The notes under the pieces are model-generated. The model did no database searches. It saw only the letters and a program-made list of their open reading frames with translations, and was not told the DNA's origin. Shown here one piece after another: positions 4,346 to 22,088 of a stretch of 64,000 nucleotides of DNA (positions are counted from its first letter, which is position 1; every line of letters starts with the position of its first letter). Position numbers and translations under genes: made by a program. The stretch is from Bdellovibrio bacteriovorus str. Tiberius. Lineage in GTDB: Bacteria > Bdellovibrionota > Bdellovibrionia > Bdellovibrionales > Bdellovibrionaceae. Where the stretch lies: positions 1,364,001 to 1,428,000 of the forward strand of contig NC_019567.1 of assembly GCF_000317895.1 (NCBI RefSeq), given 5' to 3'.

Positions 4346-4737
4346 TTGGTTTTCTCCGCTTTGATTTTTCCGGATTTGAAGAACCATTCGCCCGCTTGTT
4401 TGCGGAAAAGGCTGACTTCGTGATGGATAAAGTCTTCATCATCGACGTTGTAGTAGGCTTTGAACTCGACAGTTCCTTTGGTGCCCTTTTCTTCGGCGTG
4501 AACAATCTCAAGCTTCAGGAATTTTGCACGCTCAGCCCATTCGCGGTTGGCCTCTTCGTCGATTTGATCCAAAGTCTGAGGATCTGTCGTATCCTGCAGG
4601 TACTCCATTTGATTCTTGGCAAAAGCGCTGTAACGAGAGCGCATCAAAGCTTCGGCGGTTGGCGCTAAAGCTTTGCCAGAGTGATAAACACCACAACATT
4701 CAGAATAAGTTTTCTCAGAACCACAAGGACATTTCAT
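4342..4737 (-). CDS. ychJ: YchJ-family SEC-C motif protein
   Basis: The 131-residue protein has an N-terminal SEC-C zinc-binding motif (MKCPCGSEKTYSECCG, ligands Cys3, Cys5, Cys14, Cys15) followed by the YchJ middle domain with MRSRYSAFAKNQMEYL. The NTF2-like C-terminal part ends in WFFKSG. The family's biochemical function is not established. It is the first gene of the ychJ-EVE-dus operon and overlaps the EVE start by 4 bases. Confidence 0.9.
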   Translation of the reverse strand: MKCPCGSEKTYSECCGVYHSGKALAPTAEALMRSRYSAFAKNQMEYLQDTTDPQTLDQIDEEANREWAERAKFLKLEIVHAEEKGTKGTVEFKAYYNVDDEDFIHHEVSLFRKQAGEWFFKSGKIKAEKTK

Positions 4738-4765
4738 AGCCCGCGAAACTACCAGAATTCCCCCT

Positions 4766-4790
4766 AAAAGGTACCTGCTTACTTTTTCCG
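4766..4790 (+). repeat. Dispersed post-gene repeat, diverged copy
   Basis: The bases TAAAAGGTACCTGCTTACTT followed by TTTCC match the consensus of the repeat at 1971 and 29247 with a few changes. It sits in the divergent spacer between ychJ and the SDR gene. Confidence 0.5.
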
Positions 4791-4862
4791 AAGCGTTGCG
4801 TTAATTGGCTTGCAGGGGTGCCCTTCCAGAGGGGGGCTGCTATCGTTTTGGGGTGAGGTGAA

Positions 4863-5630
4863 ATGATGGCTAAATGGGCTTTGATTACTGGGGCAAGTTC
4901 GGGAATTGGCTGGGCAACGGCGGAAGCGCTGGCAGCGCAAGGATTTGATATTTTCGTGACCGGACGTCGCTATGAAAAACTGCAGGAACTGGAAAAGTCC
5001 ATCAAAGCCCGTCATCCCGGGATTCAAGTGAAGCTGGCTTGTTTTGACGTGTCGGACCGTTTCGAGGTCAGTGAATTCGTCAAAGCCCACAAGACGGAAA
5101 TTTCCGAGGTGGAAATTCTGGTCAACAATGCGGGCCTGGCTCGTGGGGTTGAAAAAATGCAGGACGCCTCTTTGGATGATTGGGAGGTCATGATCGACAC
5201 GAACATCAAAGGCTTGCTGTTCATGACCCGCGCCGTGGTGGAACACATGGTGAAAAAGAACTCGGGTCATATTATAAATTTAGGCTCGGTGGCGGGCCGC
5301 TGGACTTATCCAGGCGGAGGCGTTTACTGCGCCACCAAATTTGCTGTGCGCGCGCTGTCTGAAGGACTGCGTATGGATTTGCTGGGGACGCGCGTGCGTG
5401 TGACCAACATTGAGCCCGGCATGGTGAACACGGAGTTTTCCGTGGTGCGCTTGGGGGATCAGGCCAAGGCCGACAAGGTCTATGAAGGCATGACTCCGCT
5501 GTCAGCACAGGATATTGCAGACACTGTTGCATGGTGCGCAGCCAGACCGGCCCATGTGAATATTCAAGAACTCGTTATTTATCCCACAGACCAGGCCCAT
5601 GTCGGCCAGGTCGCTCGCAAAGGAGTGTAG
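4863..5630 (+). CDS. Short-chain dehydrogenase/reductase, YdfG-like
   Basis: The 255-residue protein is a classical SDR oxidoreductase. It has the Rossmann motif TGASSGIG (residues 9-16), VTGRR after strand 2 suggesting NADP preference, NNAG (88-91), the catalytic Ser in LGSVAG (about 142) and YCATK (Tyr155, Lys159). The C-terminal part resembles E. coli YdfG, which oxidises serine and 3-hydroxy acids, but the substrate is not proven. The ATG at 4863 follows GAGGTG; a second ATG at 4866 is possible. It ends 2 bases before the fumC start, so the two genes are probably co-transcribed. Confidence 0.92.
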
Positions 5631-12016: not shown

Positions 12017-12703
12017 TCAGCCTTTCAGCGCTTCTTTGAATTCCGGCGGCAGCGGGGCTTCAAAGGAGTGCTTGTACCCATTAATCATGACAGTCATACG
12101 TGCAGCGTGCAGAAACATGCGCTTGGTCTGATAGATGTTGGCCATGCGTTCGTTGTACTTGGGCTCGCCATAACGAGTGTCACCCACAATGGCATGACGG
12201 ATCAGAACACTATGCTTGCGAATCTGATGCTGACGTCCGGTGATCAGACGAACTTCCACGAAAGAAAAATACTTGTTGGCTTCAAGGACTTTGTAAAGTG
12301 TGCGGGCTTCCACACGGTCTTTTAAAAGGCCTTGTGGATTCTTGCGTCCTTCGGCCTTGTCGGAAATAGGTGTGTTCCATTCCTGCCAATCGGTGCTGAC
12401 GGGCAGTTCGCCGCGCAAAAGTGCGTAATAAGTCTTTTCAACTTTGTGTTCCTGAAACTGCCCGGAAAGATTGGCAGCAGTTTCGGCATCCAGGCCCACC
12501 AGCAACAAGCCGCTGGTTTCCTTGTCCAGGCGATGCACGGGGTGAATGTCCTGATAGGTTCCCGGTGTCAGTTGTTTTTTTAAAAGCGTGCGCACATCGG
12601 GTGGGTCATTGTGAACAGAAACGCCCGAAGGTTTGTTGATCACCAGCCAGTGTTTGGATTTTTCAAGGATGGGGATTTGGATCGGTGCAGGCGGGCGGCT
12701 CAT
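12017..12703 (-). CDS. RluA-family pseudouridine synthase
   Basis: The 228-residue protein converts uridine to pseudouridine in RNA. It has HRLDKETSGLLLV (catalytic Asp near residue 60), the KPSGVSVH strand near residue 24, and TGRQHQIRKH near 155. There is no N-terminal S4 domain, as in the short RluA/TruC type. The RNA target is not determinable. AAGGAG lies 6 bases before the ATG. The start overlaps the stop of the upstream membrane-protein gene (ATGA), so the pair is translationally coupled. Confidence 0.93.
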   Translation of the reverse strand: MSRPPAPIQIPILEKSKHWLVINKPSGVSVHNDPPDVRTLLKKQLTPGTYQDIHPVHRLDKETSGLLLVGLDAETAANLSGQFQEHKVEKTYYALLRGELPVSTDWQEWNTPISDKAEGRKNPQGLLKDRVEARTLYKVLEANKYFSFVEVRLITGRQHQIRKHSVLIRHAIVGDTRYGEPKYNERMANIYQTKRMFLHAARMTVMINGYKHSFEAPLPPEFKEALKG

Positions 12704-13110
12704 GGGATCTCCTTCAGGATATCCTGCACCAATTCCTTGGGCAGATCCTGAGTGCTCAGTGGACTTTCAAACAGGGCTCTTTCTTTACGGGAGATCGCCA
12801 GTGAATGCACGGAAATTAAAACAATCAGATTGAACAGGAATCCGCCCCAGCTCAAAAACAGGAAAAAAGTTCCCATCAGCAGGATGTTCTTTTCATAGGC
12901 TTTCAGATTCTGCTCTTCGGCACCCTCAATGAAGGGCTCGACATCCGAGCGGGACTCGCGCCAGTAAAGTCCGACCTTTTGCAGGTTGTTTTGCAGCTGT
13001 CGGTAGGCAGGGGAATTAACCTTTTTTCGGTGCATCCACAAGTGCAGTCCGGTGACGGATGCCGAGGGAATCCAACCGATGACATAGGCGGCGGCAAGTT
13101 CGGGTGCCAT
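12700..13110 (-). CDS. Small membrane protein of unknown function
   Basis: The 136-residue protein has a short N-terminal segment (MAPELAAAYVIGW), a charged middle, and one long or two short hydrophobic segments (ILLMGTFFLFLSWGG and FNLIVLISVHSLAI, about residues 77-108) followed by a charged tail. I do not recognise the family. The ATG at 13110 is preferred to an upstream in-frame codon at 13317 because AAAGGA lies just upstream and the longer version reads through what is clearly spacer. It overlaps the rluA-like gene by 4 bases. Confidence 0.75.
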   Translation of the reverse strand: MAPELAAAYVIGWIPSASVTGLHLWMHRKKVNSPAYRQLQNNLQKVGLYWRESRSDVEPFIEGAEEQNLKAYEKNILLMGTFFLFLSWGGFLFNLIVLISVHSLAISRKERALFESPLSTQDLPKELVQDILKEIP

Positions 13111-13227
13111 AGAGGTCCTTTCAAGAGCTTTTAAAGCATATTCCTGTGGTTGATTCTTAGCAAGTCTGGGCCCGGGGGTTTGAGGCAGCAATGGGTTGCG
13201 GGGCAAAATACAACAAGGGAGGTTTCT

Positions 13228-13482
13228 ATGAATCCGAACATCAATGAGTTCCTGAATTTCCTGGATAAAGAGGACGACACGGATTATGGCGACTTCAAGC
13301 GCGAGGTGGATCTGCATTTAATGCAACTGGCAGAGTCCATGCGCCCCCTAACTAACGAGCAGGTCCTGCAATTGCGTCGAATGCGCGAGCAATTACTCTG
13401 GTCTTATAAAGACGATATCGAGGAAATGCGCTCCCTGCTGAAGCAGGAGGTCAGCCACCTTGAGGATTTTGGACCTTCCTAG
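13228..13482 (+). CDS. Small acidic hypothetical protein
   Basis: The 84-residue protein is acidic and predicted mostly helical (KREVDLHLMQLAESMRPL and QVLQLRRMREQLLWSYK). No domain is recognised. AAGGGAGG lies 6 bases before the ATG at 13228, which decides the start; an upstream in-frame ATG at 13150 has no ribosome site. It precedes the parA-like gene by 69 bases on the same strand. Confidence 0.75.
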   Translation: MNPNINEFLNFLDKEDDTDYGDFKREVDLHLMQLAESMRPLTNEQVLQLRRMREQLLWSYKDDIEEMRSLLKQEVSHLEDFGPS

Positions 13483-13529
13483 GTTTTTCGCGCTGCGTGT
13501 TTCCAAGCGGAAAACCCCCTTGTACGCTT

Positions 13530-13554
13530 GAAGGACTGACGGAGGTCCTTCATG
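13530..13554 (+). promoter_or_regulatory. Hairpin enclosing the ribosome binding site of the parA-like gene
   Basis: GAAGGAC (13530-13536) and GTCCTTC (13545-13551) form a perfect 7-bp stem whose 8-base loop holds most of the GGAGG ribosome site (13541-13545). The ATG at 13552 follows immediately. Folding would restrict ribosome access. Confidence 0.5.
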
Positions 13555-14481
13555 TCCACTTTGGCGCAACAGGAGTTTTGCATTACTCTCAGCGATTTGG
13601 CCTCGTTCATGGAGATTCCTCCAAATCAAATCAAAGCCAAGGCTGAAAAAACTCTGCAACGAAAAATTAAATCCCCGTGGCTGCTTCCCGAAGAAGCCCG
13701 TCAGTTGTTGCTGGCTGAAGGTTACAAATATCCTCACAAGGTGATTTCCATCCAGATGCTCAAGGGTGGGGTGGCGAAGACCACATCCGTGCTGAACATG
13801 GGCCTGCGAGCCGCGATGTACGGAGCACGCGTGCTGTTTGTGGATTTGGATCAACAGGCCAATTTGAGTTTTGCTTTGGGTGTCGAGGACGAATCCCTTC
13901 CTGTTTGGGTGGATGTCGTCGAAAAAAAGAAAAGCATCGACGAGTGTGTGCGCTTTATCGAGCCGCATGTTGATTTGATTCCGTCCAGCCTGAACAATTC
14001 AGTTTTGGACCGGGTGTTGCTGAACTCCAACCGTAACTGGTCTTTGGCGGTGAAATCTCCGCTGGAAAAAATCAAACACCGCTATGACCTGATCCTGATC
14101 GACACGGCTCCAGCCCTTAGTGCCACGAACACGGCCGTGACTGTGGCTTCGGACGAGGTGATTTTGCCGGTGAATCCGGACAAGTTCGCCTTTATGGGGC
14201 TGCAAAAGAACCTCAGCGAACTGGAAGACATCCGCAGCGACTTCAGTCTGGAGTTCTCGCGTAAAGTTCTCTTTACCAAGTTCGATGGACGTGAGAAGTT
14301 CAGTCATGAGCTTTTACAAAAGTGCATAGAGTCTTTTGAGGACTCGCTGATGAAAGGATATATTCGAACATCAGCCGAGGTGAAAAATACCGTGCGCTCC
14401 GGTAAAAGTCTTTATGCCGGAAAGTCTCCGATCAAAGCTGACTATGATTTTGTAACCCGCGAAATGTTGGGATTTGTTTAA
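13552..14481 (+). CDS. ParA-family ATPase
   Basis: The 309-residue protein is a deviant Walker-type ATPase. It has KGGVAKTT at residues 71-78, the A' motif VDLDQQANLSFALG, and LILIDTAPALSATN as Walker B. About 60 N-terminal residues resemble a small helix-turn-helix (LSDLASFMEIPPNQIKAKAE), as in plasmid ParA proteins that bind their own promoter. No parB gene or parS-like site cluster follows; instead a charged helical protein and bolA do. It is therefore probably a cargo-positioning or orphan ParA rather than the chromosomal segregation pair, which is inference. A hairpin covers its ribosome site. Confidence 0.9.
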   Translation: MSTLAQQEFCITLSDLASFMEIPPNQIKAKAEKTLQRKIKSPWLLPEEARQLLLAEGYKYPHKVISIQMLKGGVAKTTSVLNMGLRAAMYGARVLFVDLDQQANLSFALGVEDESLPVWVDVVEKKKSIDECVRFIEPHVDLIPSSLNNSVLDRVLLNSNRNWSLAVKSPLEKIKHRYDLILIDTAPALSATNTAVTVASDEVILPVNPDKFAFMGLQKNLSELEDIRSDFSLEFSRKVLFTKFDGREKFSHELLQKCIESFEDSLMKGYIRTSAEVKNTVRSGKSLYAGKSPIKADYDFVTREMLGFV

Positions 14482-14493
14482 AAGGAAGTAAAC

Positions 14494-15081
14494 ATGCCAG
14501 AGATCAAACATTACGACGCAAAGAAAAAGCATCATCATCCAAAAAAACGCCGTCCTCATCACGAGGCTCAGGCTGAAATCGACGAAGCCGCTGAAATTCG
14601 TGGTGACGCCGAAGAAATCATCGACGAGGCCCACGCTTCTATGAACGAAGCCCATGCCACAATGGAAGCCGCGGATGAAATCAACACCGAAGCACAAAAC
14701 GAAGGTGTGAAAGTGGACGAAACCATGCGTGAAGCCAAAAAAATGGTTTCCGAAGGTGCGCCGATTTACTCGGAAGACACTGTGGATTCTGACATTCACC
14801 ATGCAGAAGAAAAAGTTCACCTGGAATTCTATGGCAGTGAAGTGATCCGCCAAAAAGCCCCCAAAGTGATGGAAATCGCCGACACCGTGGCTGACGAGTG
14901 GAAAAAAGACGGGCAGTTTGAAGGTTTGCCAGTCGGAAACCCGATCGCCCAGATGGCCGCCGCAAAAGCTTTGCGCACAGCCAAGGATGTTGATAAGAAG
15001 CTTGAAGAAAAAGGCGTCTATGCCATGGCCAAAATGGGCATCGACCTTATCAAATCCAAGATCGAGAAAAGAAATCACTAG
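14494..15081 (+). CDS. Highly charged helical protein, possible ParA partner
   Basis: The 195-residue protein starts with a His/Lys cluster (KKKHHHPKKRRPHHEAQ), continues with regularly spaced Glu/Ala heptad-like sequence (EAHASMNEAHATMEAADEIN), and ends in a Lys-rich helix. A basic patch followed by acidic coiled coil could bind DNA or ATPase, but there is no recognised domain. It starts 12 bases after the parA-like stop with AAGGAAG in the gap, so the two are surely co-transcribed. bolA starts 3 bases after its stop. Confidence 0.85.
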   Translation: MPEIKHYDAKKKHHHPKKRRPHHEAQAEIDEAAEIRGDAEEIIDEAHASMNEAHATMEAADEINTEAQNEGVKVDETMREAKKMVSEGAPIYSEDTVDSDIHHAEEKVHLEFYGSEVIRQKAPKVMEIADTVADEWKKDGQFEGLPVGNPIAQMAAAKALRTAKDVDKKLEEKGVYAMAKMGIDLIKSKIEKRNH

Positions 15082-15084
15082 AAC

Positions 15085-15414
15085 ATGTCCCGAGAATCCC
15101 GTATCCGCGAAATCCTAAACCAGTCCCTGGCTCCAATCGAGCTGGGGGTTGAAAACGAAAGCCACATGCACTCGGTGCCCCCAAACAGCGAAACTCATTT
15201 CAAAGTGCTGGTGGTATCAGAAGCCTTCGAAGGCAAATCCCGCATCGACCGCCAACGTATGGTGAACGATCTATTGAAGTCGGAACTTCAAACAGGCCTG
15301 CATGCTCTCACGCAAAAGGCTCTAACGCCGACCGAATGGGCGTCCCAAAAAGACACTCTGAACTTCGTTTCCCCAGAATGCCTTGGTGGCAGCAAGCACG
15401 ATCGTCGTTCTTAG
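15085..15414 (+). CDS. bolA: BolA family protein
   Basis: The 109-residue protein has the BolA fold signature: HSVPPNSETHFKVLVVS, the RQRMVNDLL helix and GLHALTQKALTPTEW. BolA proteins bind 2Fe-2S clusters with monothiol glutaredoxins and affect cell shape and stress responses. The conserved His of HALT can serve as cluster ligand. It begins 3 bases after the previous stop and has no clear ribosome site of its own, which suggests translational coupling to the charged protein. Confidence 0.93.
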   Translation: MSRESRIREILNQSLAPIELGVENESHMHSVPPNSETHFKVLVVSEAFEGKSRIDRQRMVNDLLKSELQTGLHALTQKALTPTEWASQKDTLNFVSPECLGGSKHDRRS

Positions 15415-17913: not shown

Positions 17914-18756
17914 ATGAAAAATCAGTGGGTGAGGGCAGGGTTATTCCTGCTCTTTCTTTTTGGCGCATCGAAGGTGGTACCGGCCGGTTCCATCGATCCC
18001 TGGGGGCTGTTCCGCCCCCAGAAGATTCTATTTATGTTCTTTGCTCTTTCAACACTGCAGGTGATGGGAAAGGTGTTGTCTTCCTTTGTCGGTCACCGCG
18101 CCGGAATGCTGATGACTGGTTTTCTTGGAGGCATGCTTTCAAGTACGGCCACCACGGTGCGACTGGCCAAAGACAGCCATGACACCGAAGGCTCCCAAAG
18201 TGTCAGGATGGCCGCAATGCAGGCGGCGATTCTGGCTATGCTGCTGCAGGCGATTGTGCTGGTCGGTGCAGGCAGTATCGCGGCCCTGCAAGTGGTGTCA
18301 GTGCATTTCCTGGCACTATTTGTAATAACAGTGGTGATGATCATTGTTCTATGGCGACGACAAAGCCGCCCGCGACATATTGCGACCGGCCCGGAAAAAA
18401 TTCTGGATGTCTGGGAGTCACTGAAGCTGACTGTCTTTATCGTTCTGATTTTAGCCGCCAGCCGGGGGGCTCAAGCCTGGATGGGCAACGACGGTTTGAT
18501 GGCATTAACCTTTGTGGTGTCGTTGTTTGAAGTTCATGGGTCATTGATTTCCACAGCCCAGCTTTTGGCAGCGGATCAGGTGGGGCTTGCTCAGTACGAG
18601 CGACTTGTCGAGATGTCCTTGCTGGCAAGTTTTGTATCAAAAATGTTTCTTATCTCCATCATGTCCAGTGCCCCATTTAAAAAGAGGGCACTTTTAAGTC
18701 TGATGCCCGCTGTACTGTTTTTGGTTTTGCATCTTTTTGGCTGGATTCATATTTAG
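17914..18756 (+). CDS. DUF4010 / MgtC-related membrane protein
   Basis: The 280-residue protein is an integral membrane protein with about eight hydrophobic segments and the conserved GGMLSSTATTVRLAK motif (about residues 70-84) of DUF4010 proteins, which are often fused to or paired with MgtC-like domains. The N-terminal MgtC half is missing here. Function is unknown; a transport-related role is only a guess. It starts 6 bases after ettA and probably shares its transcript. Its last 4 bases overlap the convergent fibre gene. Confidence 0.85.
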   Translation: MKNQWVRAGLFLLFLFGASKVVPAGSIDPWGLFRPQKILFMFFALSTLQVMGKVLSSFVGHRAGMLMTGFLGGMLSSTATTVRLAKDSHDTEGSQSVRMAAMQAAILAMLLQAIVLVGAGSIAALQVVSVHFLALFVITVVMIIVLWRRQSRPRHIATGPEKILDVWESLKLTVFIVLILAASRGAQAWMGNDGLMALTFVVSLFEVHGSLISTAQLLAADQVGLAQYERLVEMSLLASFVSKMFLISIMSSAPFKKRALLSLMPAVLFLVLHLFGWIHI

Positions 18757-21700
18757 TTCTGGCACATATATACGACACGAATATCGTAAATGGCATTCCC
18801 CGCGGCAGCGACGTCTGTAGAGAAGCCAAATCCACCATTCGCATTGGCAGAGCATGATCCGGGGCATCCCGGATAGACGGATTCATTTGGACCTAACGCA
18901 GAAACGTTACTTTCCATGCCCGTAAGAACACTTTTTGAGATGTACCCAACACAAGTTGCATTGGGAACCCCGTCGGTACATTCCGCGGTAATCCAGTTAT
19001 GAACGTTGTAAGCTGCGACAGTTGTCCCTGTCTGAGTGGCGTAAGAGCAGACGGTCATTCTTCCAATCGGAGCGCTGGTTCCGATTTTGACGGCACCATT
19101 GACTTCAAGTTTTGCAGTCGGGTTCGTCACTCCAATCCCCACATTTCCATTGTGGTTGATCACCATTTTTTCAGAGGATCCCGAAGAGCCATTGTTCGTG
19201 GTCTGGAAGGTGATTTTTGCACCTCCGGCTGATGCCGTGTGAGTCTCTGTCGCATAGAAATTGACAGCGGCATTGCCGCCACTCTGGTATTGTGTGCCGT
19301 TATAGGCAAAAGCTGTCAGGCTGGTGATTCCCTGTCCGCTGATGACAGCCGTGGGAGATGCCAGCGTCCCGGCGCTTTGGTAGCCCGAGAATGTAGCCAT
19401 TTCTATTGCGCTGGAAACAAGGGTGGCAACGCGGCCGCCGACATCGGTGCCTTCGCCGACGGCTTGAATGCCTGCTCTATGCGGATGAACAGTCGACGAA
19501 GGTACGCGGGTTGCGACCTGTAAAGGCACGGTGGGCGCGGTCGTTCCGATTCCCACGCTTCCAGAGCCAGTGATTCGCATGCGTTCGGAATCAGTTCCGG
19601 CGGCCGCTGTATAAAAACGCAGATTCCCGTTCACCGCGGTTGCAAAGTCCGTTTCCGCACTGGAAGAAATTCGTGCACTATAAGCATGGGTTGCGCCGTC
19701 GTAAGCGCGGAAAGCCAGCGTACCGATGGTGTCATTGGCAAGCGCCGGATTTCTGGTGGTGGTGGTGCCGCGTGAGCGGACCAGACTGATCTGGGGCACA
19801 GCGGTTTCAGAGTTCACGGCCTCCATAAAGATATCATCGCCATAATCAGTGCCATCACCAACGATGTGCAGTTTGCGGGTCGGCGCCGTCGTGCCGATCC
19901 CCATCATGCCCGAGCTGTCCATGCGCATGCGTTCAGTGCCGTTCACGCTGAAGCCCAGAATGTTGGTGGCGGAGAACATTCCCGTCGTGGTGTAGCTGCC
20001 GAAAGCATATGTTGGGTTGGACGCTCCGTAAACCCCACCACCCAGGCGCATGTACGGAGCATAGCTTCCGTTAAGTTGCATGACGTTGTTGCTAAGATCC
20101 ATGACAAGACTTCCGCTGGAAGTAAATCGCATGATCCCGCCGTTGTTCGAAATCCCGGTGTTGGTGTTATTGGCGAAACTGATGGAAGGAGCACTCCAGG
20201 TGCCATCTCCGATAAGCAACTTGCCAGACCCACTGATGTTGTAAGTGGCCATGTTCAAGTTTGCGGTGGCCGTGTGATTTCCCAGATTGTCACCCACAGA
20301 CGGAAGCAAAGCTGCCGGAACTTTCCCGGTGCCATCAAGTTCCACCAGATTGCCGGCCGCAGTGCCAAAGTCCTTCGCTGCGGCGGTTCCCAGTCCTGAA
20401 ACCTGCGTGTTGCTGATTGCGATGTCGGCACAAGTGAACGTGTCGGTGATTGCACTCCAGTTCAGGGTTTTGTTTGCGGTCGCACAAGCTGCGGGCATTT
20501 GGGTGTTGCCAGTGACGGTTGAGCGCAATTGGCCAAAACCCACGTATTGCACTTTCCATTTCGTGGCATCATGAACCAGCATCTGGCCGGTCAAAGGAGT
20601 TGTCGTGTCTATCGCCACACCTTGGATTTTTTCAACCTTGGTGTTGCTAAGGCCCGCAGTTGAGGTCACATCGCCGGCGACATTGGCGTAATCTGCCGCG
20701 GCCATATTCGAACCACTGGTCACAAGACCTTTGGCGCTGACCACAACGCGGTTGTAGGTGCCAGCGGTCACACCCGAATCATTCAAAGAAATAACCGGAG
20801 CCGTACCCCCGGAACTGGCCAGGGGAGCGGAAGCGGTGACGCCGGTCACGGTGCCGCCACTGGTGGTCACGGTTGTCCATGACAATTTGCCAGTGCCGTC
20901 GGTTTTCAACAGCTGCCCATCGGTGCCGTCGGCCGCAGGTAATTCGTAACTGGAATTTGCGCTTAAGGCCGGGGCTTTCAGTTCTACATAATTCGAGCCG
21001 GAATACACGCGGATCCCGCTGGAAGTCTGAATCAGGCCGCTGGTGTTGATGGCCGTACTGCCGCCGATGGTGCCCGATGTGATGGCACCGCCTGACACTT
21101 TGCCGGCTGTGGAAATAGTCGCAAGCTTGGAATCTGCAATCGCCGCCGAACCGGAAATGTCCTCGTTCAAAATCGTGCCGTTCACGATTTTGGCCGTGGT
21201 CACCGTGTCGTCGTTCAAAGTCACAGTGGCAGCAGGGCTTCCAGAGGAAGACACTGCACCTGTCAAAGAGGTGATCGCACCGGCAGTGCCGGCATTGTCA
21301 TCTGCCGGTGCCCAGTTCGTACCGTCAAATTTCAGTACTTTTCCCGAAGCCAGGCCGGAGTTCACCACCGGTGTGCCTTTGATGCGATCCACAGAGGTCG
21401 CACTTTGAGTGCCTGAAACATCCCCAGTCAAATTGCCGGTGAAACCCGCGGCACTGCCGCTGATGTTTCCGGTGACGTTGCCTCCGGTGACGGTGGGGGC
21501 CGTGCATTCAAAAGTGCCGGCAGGGGCGATGTGACGCAAATAGCTGCCAGCTCCGCAGAAAGGCAAAGAGGCTTTGGCGACAAAGTCACTGGCAACTTGA
21601 GTTCCCAGTTTCTGCGCGGTTTGTGCGATTTTGGCGTGACCGGCATAGGGGACGGAGCGGATTTCATTGTCCGGTGTGATCAGTTTCCAACCAGTGCCGT

Positions 21701-22088
21701 CATGGAATTGCACGCGCAGCAAACGTTTGTCGTCAGCAACCGGAGTGTAGGATCCGCCGCCTTCGCATGGAATTGCCGCCGAGTTGTCAAAGCTGTCCAA
21801 CAATTTAAAACCAGCCGCGGCAGGATAGTTTTTTGTGCCGGTGCCGATGGGAACGTCAAACACTCCGGAAGAGTTGCGCATATCAATGGCGCCGGAAGTT
21901 TCCCGGTAAAGGACGCAGGTGCCGTTTGGATTGGTCACCGAAAACTCAAAGCGAACGCCATTGACCTCAAGTGCATCCCCTTGAGCATTTCTGATGCGTC
22001 CTTGATAGGTGAGTGAACCCGGTGTGGCGAAGGCCCCCGACGAAAGAAAAAGCAGGGTGAATACCGTTACGTACAGGTGTTTTTCCAT
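18753..22088 (-). CDS. Secreted trimeric-fibre-like adhesin (MAT family), fibre 1
   Basis: The 1111-residue protein has a signal peptide (VFTLLFLSSGAFA, cleavage near residue 22) and then SLTYQGRIRNAQGDALEVNG, an N-terminal domain common to large Bdellovibrio surface proteins. A long Gly/Ser/Thr/Asn-rich shaft follows, with repeated phage-fibre-like units such as GNISGSAAGFTGNLTGDVSG and three GIGxTxPxxxLxV units (MGIGTTAPTRKLHIVG, VGIGTTAPTVPLQV, VGIGVTNPTAKLEVNG). These match MAT fibres, which recognise prey surfaces. The last 110 residues form a Cys-containing domain ending VVYMCQN, with no S74 chaperone, unlike fibre 2. A histidine kinase gene lies just upstream on the same strand. Trimerisation and adhesion are inferred from the family. 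Confidence 0.85.
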   Translation of the reverse strand: MEKHLYVTVFTLLFLSSGAFATPGSLTYQGRIRNAQGDALEVNGVRFEFSVTNPNGTCVLYRETSGAIDMRNSSGVFDVPIGTGTKNYPAAAGFKLLDSFDNSAAIPCEGGGSYTPVADDKRLLRVQFHDGTGWKLITPDNEIRSVPYAGHAKIAQTAQKLGTQVASDFVAKASLPFCGAGSYLRHIAPAGTFECTAPTVTGGNVTGNISGSAAGFTGNLTGDVSGTQSATSVDRIKGTPVVNSGLASGKVLKFDGTNWAPADDNAGTAGAITSLTGAVSSSGSPAATVTLNDDTVTTAKIVNGTILNEDISGSAAIADSKLATISTAGKVSGGAITSGTIGGSTAINTSGLIQTSSGIRVYSGSNYVELKAPALSANSSYELPAADGTDGQLLKTDGTGKLSWTTVTTSGGTVTGVTASAPLASSGGTAPVISLNDSGVTAGTYNRVVVSAKGLVTSGSNMAAADYANVAGDVTSTAGLSNTKVEKIQGVAIDTTTPLTGQMLVHDATKWKVQYVGFGQLRSTVTGNTQMPAACATANKTLNWSAITDTFTCADIAISNTQVSGLGTAAAKDFGTAAGNLVELDGTGKVPAALLPSVGDNLGNHTATANLNMATYNISGSGKLLIGDGTWSAPSISFANNTNTGISNNGGIMRFTSSGSLVMDLSNNVMQLNGSYAPYMRLGGGVYGASNPTYAFGSYTTTGMFSATNILGFSVNGTERMRMDSSGMMGIGTTAPTRKLHIVGDGTDYGDDIFMEAVNSETAVPQISLVRSRGTTTTRNPALANDTIGTLAFRAYDGATHAYSARISSSAETDFATAVNGNLRFYTAAAGTDSERMRITGSGSVGIGTTAPTVPLQVATRVPSSTVHPHRAGIQAVGEGTDVGGRVATLVSSAIEMATFSGYQSAGTLASPTAVISGQGITSLTAFAYNGTQYQSGGNAAVNFYATETHTASAGGAKITFQTTNNGSSGSSEKMVINHNGNVGIGVTNPTAKLEVNGAVKIGTSAPIGRMTVCSYATQTGTTVAAYNVHNWITAECTDGVPNATCVGYISKSVLTGMESNVSALGPNESVYPGCPGSCSANANGGFGFSTDVAAAGNAIYDIRVVYMCQN

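Follow-up and report, generated by a model that had tools for sequence, protein, structure and literature searches.

A short N-terminal motif points to the likely adaptor of the ParA1 ATPase in Bdellovibrio

ParA-adaptor pairs are a known kind of system. The partners of ParA/MinD ATPases contact the enzyme and activate it by means of an N-terminal peptide that is short, disordered, and positively charged and in which an arginine or lysine is essential; the remainder of each protein is devoted to the cargo (PMC10241942, PMC13170346). In McdB the ATPase-contacting peptide comprises residues 1 to 20 (PMC12204374), and in ParB the key residue of the N-terminal activating peptide is R13 (PMC12462528). 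ParA/MinD partners are too diverse to be detected by homology, and many ParA proteins remain "orphans" (PMC10241942).

The Bdellovibrio bacteriovorus HD100 genes bd1326 (parA1), bd1327, and bd1328 were found by RT-PCR to be co-expressed, at 3 h (Milner et al. 2020, PMC7186360). The same study reported that parA1 expression was highest at 3 to 4 h, that deletion of parA1 had no measurable phenotype, and that Bd1327 has no strong homology to ParB or any known protein. The gene trio was already described in that work and hence is not itself new. The main texts of the Tn-seq and proteome papers do not name bd1326 to bd1328.

The trio locus and its ATPase

The window, which is the whole stretch of 64,000 nucleotides that was analyzed, spans bases 1364001 to 1428000 of the single contig (3,988,594 bp) of the host genome, B. 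bacteriovorus Tiberius. It contains three plus-strand open reading frames exactly as a preliminary description of this DNA had read them: a ParA gene, a gene for a charged protein within 12 bases of it, and then bolA. The gene parA1 (13552 to 14481, +), the orthologue of HD100 Bd1326, encodes a ParA-type ATPase of 309 amino acids (AAA_31, E 1.3e-36; phmmer matches to solved ParA, Soj, and McdA ATPases). The middle gene, referred to here as the partner gene (14494 to 15081, +; Bd1327 orthologue), starts 12 nt after the parA1 stop codon, encodes a two-part charged protein of 195 amino acids, and is conserved directly 3' of parA1. It is followed after 3 nt by bolA (15085 to 15414, +; Bd1328 orthologue), the 109-amino-acid product of which matches PF01722 over the full BolA domain (E 4.5e-29).

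A scan of the genome for ParB_N detected no such domain at the trio locus, in agreement with the earlier statement that no ParB adjoins this ParA. The sole match was at the canonical parAB (parA3) locus, which on the contig lies some 2.6 Mb from the trio, and parA1 is not accompanied by a gene for a ParB_N cognate of the kind that defines canonical ParABS systems. The preliminary description had set its reading against a ParB partner encoded elsewhere together with a trio that is not conserved; the single ParB of this genome goes with ParA3, and the trio is conserved.

ParA1 has the features of a ParA-like member of the ParA/MinD group: an ATPase domain with a deviant Walker A motif, KGGVAKTT (13762 to 13785, +), that includes the signature lysine and is conserved in an alignment with ParA2, ParA3, and relatives. 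With regard to non-specific DNA binding by the ATP-bound dimer, the alignment revealed a conserved arginine in FDGRE/FDIRN and basic residues near the C-terminus. About 60 amino acids precede the ATPase domain of ParA1 (13552 to 13734, +) and are missing from ParA2 and ParA3 in the alignment. The equivalent region in relatives of ParA1 gave HTH_17/HTH_11 matches at 7e-5 and 1e-3, which are weak and below the Pfam cutoffs. Judged from these scores, the extension is probably a DNA-binding, helix-turn-helix (HTH)-like region, possibly with a role in autoregulation.

Upstream of parA1, a short stretch around GTAGGCTT (window positions ∼13490 to 13550, about 20 to 30 nt before the ribosome-binding site) is conserved throughout the genus and is possibly a promoter element or an operator. 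Alignment of the upstream regions in search of an operator yielded only this short common stretch, with no clear palindrome by eye. Farther upstream, a gene for an 84-amino-acid protein with no family match (13228 to 13482, +) is conserved 5' of parA1 across the genus and overlaps a conserved 205-amino-acid open reading frame on the opposite strand (12700 to 13317, −).

The HTH-like extension would be in place if ParA1 mainly repressed its own operon through that region, with the partner tuning the repression and no cargo being positioned. The conserved stretch around GTAGGCTT, the co-expression of the operon, and the peak of parA1 expression at 3 to 4 h (PMC7186360) also favor such a purely regulatory role. 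However, regulation leaves unexplained why the same docking motif is found on proteins that differ widely in size and composition (see below). Furthermore, autoregulation in type Ia ParA proteins is additional to partition rather than a replacement for it. Thus, it seems very unlikely that the operon is only regulatory.

The RRP motif and the ATPase

The middle protein had been characterized at the outset as rich in His/Lys and Glu/Ala, a description that holds; its N-terminus reads MPEIKHYDAKKKHHHPKKRRPHHEAQAEIDEAAEI. Searches of Pfam, NCBIfam, and PDB sequence profiles returned no convincing relatives, and no homologues were found on plasmids. A relationship to ParB was rejected because the protein has no ParB_N domain, and a relationship to the neighbor of ParA2 was rejected because the two have no motif in common.

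The protein is built in two parts. The front half is variable, differs greatly in length among homologues, and was modeled with low confidence (N-terminal pLDDT, ∼55). Two short motifs, MPxIKx[FY] and [KR]RRP, stand out in this disordered N-terminal region. In the window, the first is MPEIKHY at residues 1 to 7 (14494 to 14514, +) and the second is RRP at residues 19 to 21, within KKRRPHH (14548 to 14556, +).

In order to follow the pair across genomes, 66 Bdellovibrionaceae genomes were sampled, about 40 of which have a ParA1 orthologue; in one of them (G013) the contig edge falls inside parA1. The partner gene lay next to parA1 in 40/40 readable genomes, 39 from the family and 1 from another family, and the partner in the latter genome is unrelated beyond the motifs. 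Within Bdellovibrionaceae, the median gap between parA1 and the partner homologue was ∼10 nt where the contig continued. The conservation of the gene neighborhood, which the preliminary description had proposed to check, was borne out: because a partner homologue follows parA1 throughout the readable Bdellovibrionaceae and bolA comes next in 54/59, the order of the trio is not due to chance.

RRP was present in 39 of the 40 partners encoded with ParA1 and in none of the 20 encoded without it, compared with 0.4 of 40 and 0.02, respectively, expected from shuffling of the residues. The lone exception with ParA1 has KRRL, and RR is thus found in 40/40 versus 0/20. The MP start was similarly distributed in the alignment (37/40 with ParA1 versus 1/20 without), and the first 40 residues had a median net charge of +3 in partners with ParA1 versus −1.5 in those without. 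Start codons of the proteins from ParA1-less genomes were picked by rule; the RRP result was unaffected in the reading frames examined, and the RR count was sensitive to the choice of start codon in one case (L108). The position of RRP ranged from residue 10 to residue 56 within a region that otherwise changes freely, which fits what is expected of a short linear motif.

On an independent protein tree of the neighboring ABC-F gene, the presence of ParA1 and that of RRP agreed in 56/57 genomes. The best ABC-F tree required at least five changes in ParA1, three of them on well-supported branches. A model in which the two traits evolve dependently outperformed the independent model (LR, 39; nominal P = 6e-8), but this P value overstates the case because the signal comes from no more than about five events. 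A conservative paired sign test on three pairs gave P = 0.25, with too few pairs to reach significance. Among the genomes without ParA1 is that of Bdellovibrio sp. qaytius (G052), relatives of whose group are named Pseudobdellovibrio. Close to the ABC-F gene in the window is also a gene (18753 to 22088, −) for a 1,111-amino-acid, repeat-rich, secreted-looking protein that resembles a fiber or adhesin.

In some lineages it is possible that one deletion hit both parA1 and the partner N-terminus, which are 12 bp apart. One ParA1-less locus (L107) has kept the start of the protein, MPHVTTHYENNKK, but RRP is gone, which speaks against a simple joint deletion in that case. Nor does joint deletion account for the exchange of domains described below.

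The small number of independent events and the adjacency of the two genes are also what might be seen if the proteins were neighbors that do not interact. RRP would then serve in binding nucleic acid, polyphosphate, or membrane, and its joint loss with ParA1 would stem from common ancestry and a small number of adjacent deletions; the His/Lys-rich tail could indeed bind polyanions. However, RRP persists in the partners linked to ParA1 in some 15 genera even though the surrounding sequence changed completely, ParA1 orthologues in two other families adjoin unrelated proteins with the same motifs, and the L107 protein retains its start but not RRP. An absence of interaction is therefore considered unlikely.

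The C-terminal domain, bolA, and payload exchange

The final ∼85 residues of the partner are conserved, with invariant W, F, A, and K residues. The corresponding domain in the window (residues 108 to 195; 14815 to 15078, +), a candidate cargo or cargo-binding domain, was modeled as four helices with a mean pLDDT of 92. Foldseek returned no match to this fold under an E value of 0.001, and a second structural comparison gave Z scores of ≤4.2, no higher than the stated noise level for helical models; the lack of a match does not show that the fold is new. In profile searches the domain was nearly restricted to Bdellovibrionaceae, with one clear match outside the family (G365; E 5e-14). That lone homologue (L169, 3209 to 3679) lacks RRP, has neither ParA nor bolA beside it, and may show an ancestral use of the domain.

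A long-form bolA gene was located 3' of the partner in 54 of the 59 family genomes with a partner, with spacing of −22 to +35 nt. In the remaining five, the long BolA was encoded elsewhere (G046) or was not found (G030, G033, G038, and G039), the latter four having only a second, shorter BolA-type protein. All 20 genomes without ParA1 retain both the C-terminal domain of the partner and the adjoining bolA, and thus the association of bolA is with the C-terminal (payload) domain rather than with ParA1. Three genomes of the same family (G044, G063, and G064) have the long-form bolA, with neither ParA1 nor the partner C-terminal domain detected; bolA is therefore independent of the pair. The suggestion that bolA hints at a connection of this ParA with cell shape or stress is not supported, given the retention of bolA in 20/20 ParA1-less genomes and the lack of a phenotype upon deletion of parA1 (PMC7186360).

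Outside the family, ParA1 orthologues are followed by other proteins. In a genome from another family of the same order (G071), ParA1 (55% identity) precedes a 98-amino-acid protein, MPKVSDF...HHRRRRPGREE, and in a genome from a different family of the same phylum (G327), ParA1 (53% identity) precedes a 475-amino-acid protein, MPDINEFL...PQRRPGRGDD. The profile search detected the C-terminal domain in neither downstream protein. The genes downstream of ParAs with 28 to 45% identity encode proteins that begin with a basic segment and vary in the rest, and RP was found in the first 75 residues of 13 of the 19 neighbors of distant ParAs (<50% identity), versus 4.3 expected by shuffling. Some of these neighbors have winged-helix-like ends (weak matches), and some such loci are on plasmids.

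In the ParA tree, the ParAs with RRP partners form one clade with ParA1. By descent, ParA1 falls among ParAs that have long partners beginning with a basic segment. The motif appears to follow the ATPase while the rest is swapped, because the motif is lost without parA1, the C-terminal domain is kept, and the motifs occur on unrelated proteins. The simplest reading of these comparisons would be a lineage of partition-type ParAs in which the partner retains an ATPase-facing motif and the payload changes; ParA1 looks like one such ParA whose partner exchanged its payload domain. At another locus (L154 in G073), the gene for a distant ParA (35% identity) overlaps at its end with a frame whose product has RPW in a basic N-terminus and then a predicted domain that by eye resembles a lipid acyltransferase; this is possibly another payload exchange.

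The same plasmid relatives of ParA1 (38.8% identity at best) raise the alternative that ParA1 and its partner are still a plasmid-type partition pair, now on the chromosome, and that the C-terminal domain binds a centromere-like site. The partners of several relatives show weak winged-helix/HTH matches, or likeness by eye, after the basic N-terminus, and an HTH-like extension also precedes the ATPase domain of ParA1. Such a relic of DNA segregation nevertheless seems improbable, given that searches with the C-terminal domain hit no DNA-binding family, that its model has no clear likeness to one in the PDB, and that the domain is kept beside bolA in 20 genomes without ParA1.

Proposed mechanism and known systems

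These comparisons point to the middle protein as the likely adaptor of ParA1. It has a short positive peptide at or near a disordered N-terminus, its gene is conserved beside that of the ATPase, and it fits the plan of ParA/MinD partners. The basic N-terminal motif is kept with ParA1, gone without it, and found on unrelated C-terminal parts elsewhere. The charged protein is very probably the cognate partner of ParA1. The preliminary description had proposed that it may be a new adaptor or cargo; the adaptor or partner role is likely on the strength of the retained and lost motif and the exchanged C-terminal parts, and the novelty is lessened in that the trio has been known since 2020.

By analogy with described ParA/MinD partners, RRP would be the obvious element for binding and activating ParA1, and the remainder of the protein would handle cargo. 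In the proposed mechanism, ATP-bound ParA1 dimers would sit on the nucleoid, and the partner would be held on a cargo, or be part of one, via its C-terminal helical domain. RRP in the disordered N-terminus, helped by MPxIKx[FY], would contact ParA1. This contact would stimulate ATP hydrolysis and locally free ParA1, so that the cargo would become distributed over the nucleoid or travel along it, in the manner of McdAB or ParAB. We assign a probability of roughly two in three to this full positioning mechanism, with the partner as both the adaptor and the ATPase-activating protein of ParA1. Points against it are the lack of a measurable phenotype of the HD100 parA1 deletion (PMC7186360), the few independent losses (five on the best tree, three of them well supported), and the location of RRP up to 50 residues in, deeper than typical activating peptides.

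A broader and more tentative proposal is that a partition-type ParA was co-opted in predatory bacteria as a general positioning motor, with the two-part motif (MPxIKx[FY] plus RRP) carried on payloads that vary from lineage to lineage. The payload in Bdellovibrio would be the BolA-tied helical domain, through which some cellular body would be positioned, and the system would have been lost several times, as in Bdellovibrio qaytius.

New in this analysis are the pinpointing of the partner by the coupling of motif and ATPase, a docking motif in two parts, an uncharacterized payload domain associated with bolA, and the exchange of payloads. Gene loss and payload exchange served as a natural experiment that indicates the partner and its payload domain and narrows the probable site of contact to a target of three residues. 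The function of Bdellovibrio ParA1, which was phenotype-free in 2020, becomes directly testable. A route to the partners of other orphan ParAs is also suggested, namely, a search for short motifs that are lost with the ATPase and borne on exchanged domains. For specialists, the result is useful and testable rather than astonishing.

Comparison with described systems places the pair among several relatives. ParA2 of the same genome, which with Bd2329 is associated with gliding reversals, is another orphan ParA with a small uncharacterized partner gene. It differs from ParA1 in having no N-terminal extension and a 164-amino-acid neighbor (L039, reverse-complement coordinates 4630 to 5124) from which RRP is absent; ParA2 may use a different docking element.

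The canonical ParABS system (ParA3/ParB, Bd3906/Bd3905) shares with the ParA1 pair the ParA fold and the principle of activation through an N-terminal peptide with a key arginine. The partner of ParA1, in contrast, is a different protein with no ParB_N domain and no known parS, and parA1 could be deleted whereas parA3 could not (PMC7186360).

The closest plasmid ParA, from Piscirickettsia (L173), is 38.8% identical over residues 40 to 308 and has an HTH-like N-terminus, and its partner begins with a basic segment that includes RP. That partner, however, continues into a repeat-rich linker and a winged-helix-like end rather than a helical domain, and bolA does not adjoin the locus.

The trio differs from the carboxysome system McdA/McdB in that no microcompartment genes were present among the neighbors scanned, the C-terminal domain of the partner is unrelated, ParA1 has an HTH-like extension, and RRP lies 10 to 56 residues in. 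What the two have in common is a gene for a ParA-type ATPase beside that of a largely disordered adaptor, the short basic N-terminus of which docks on the ATPase, as is predicted for the trio, while the rest handles the cargo.
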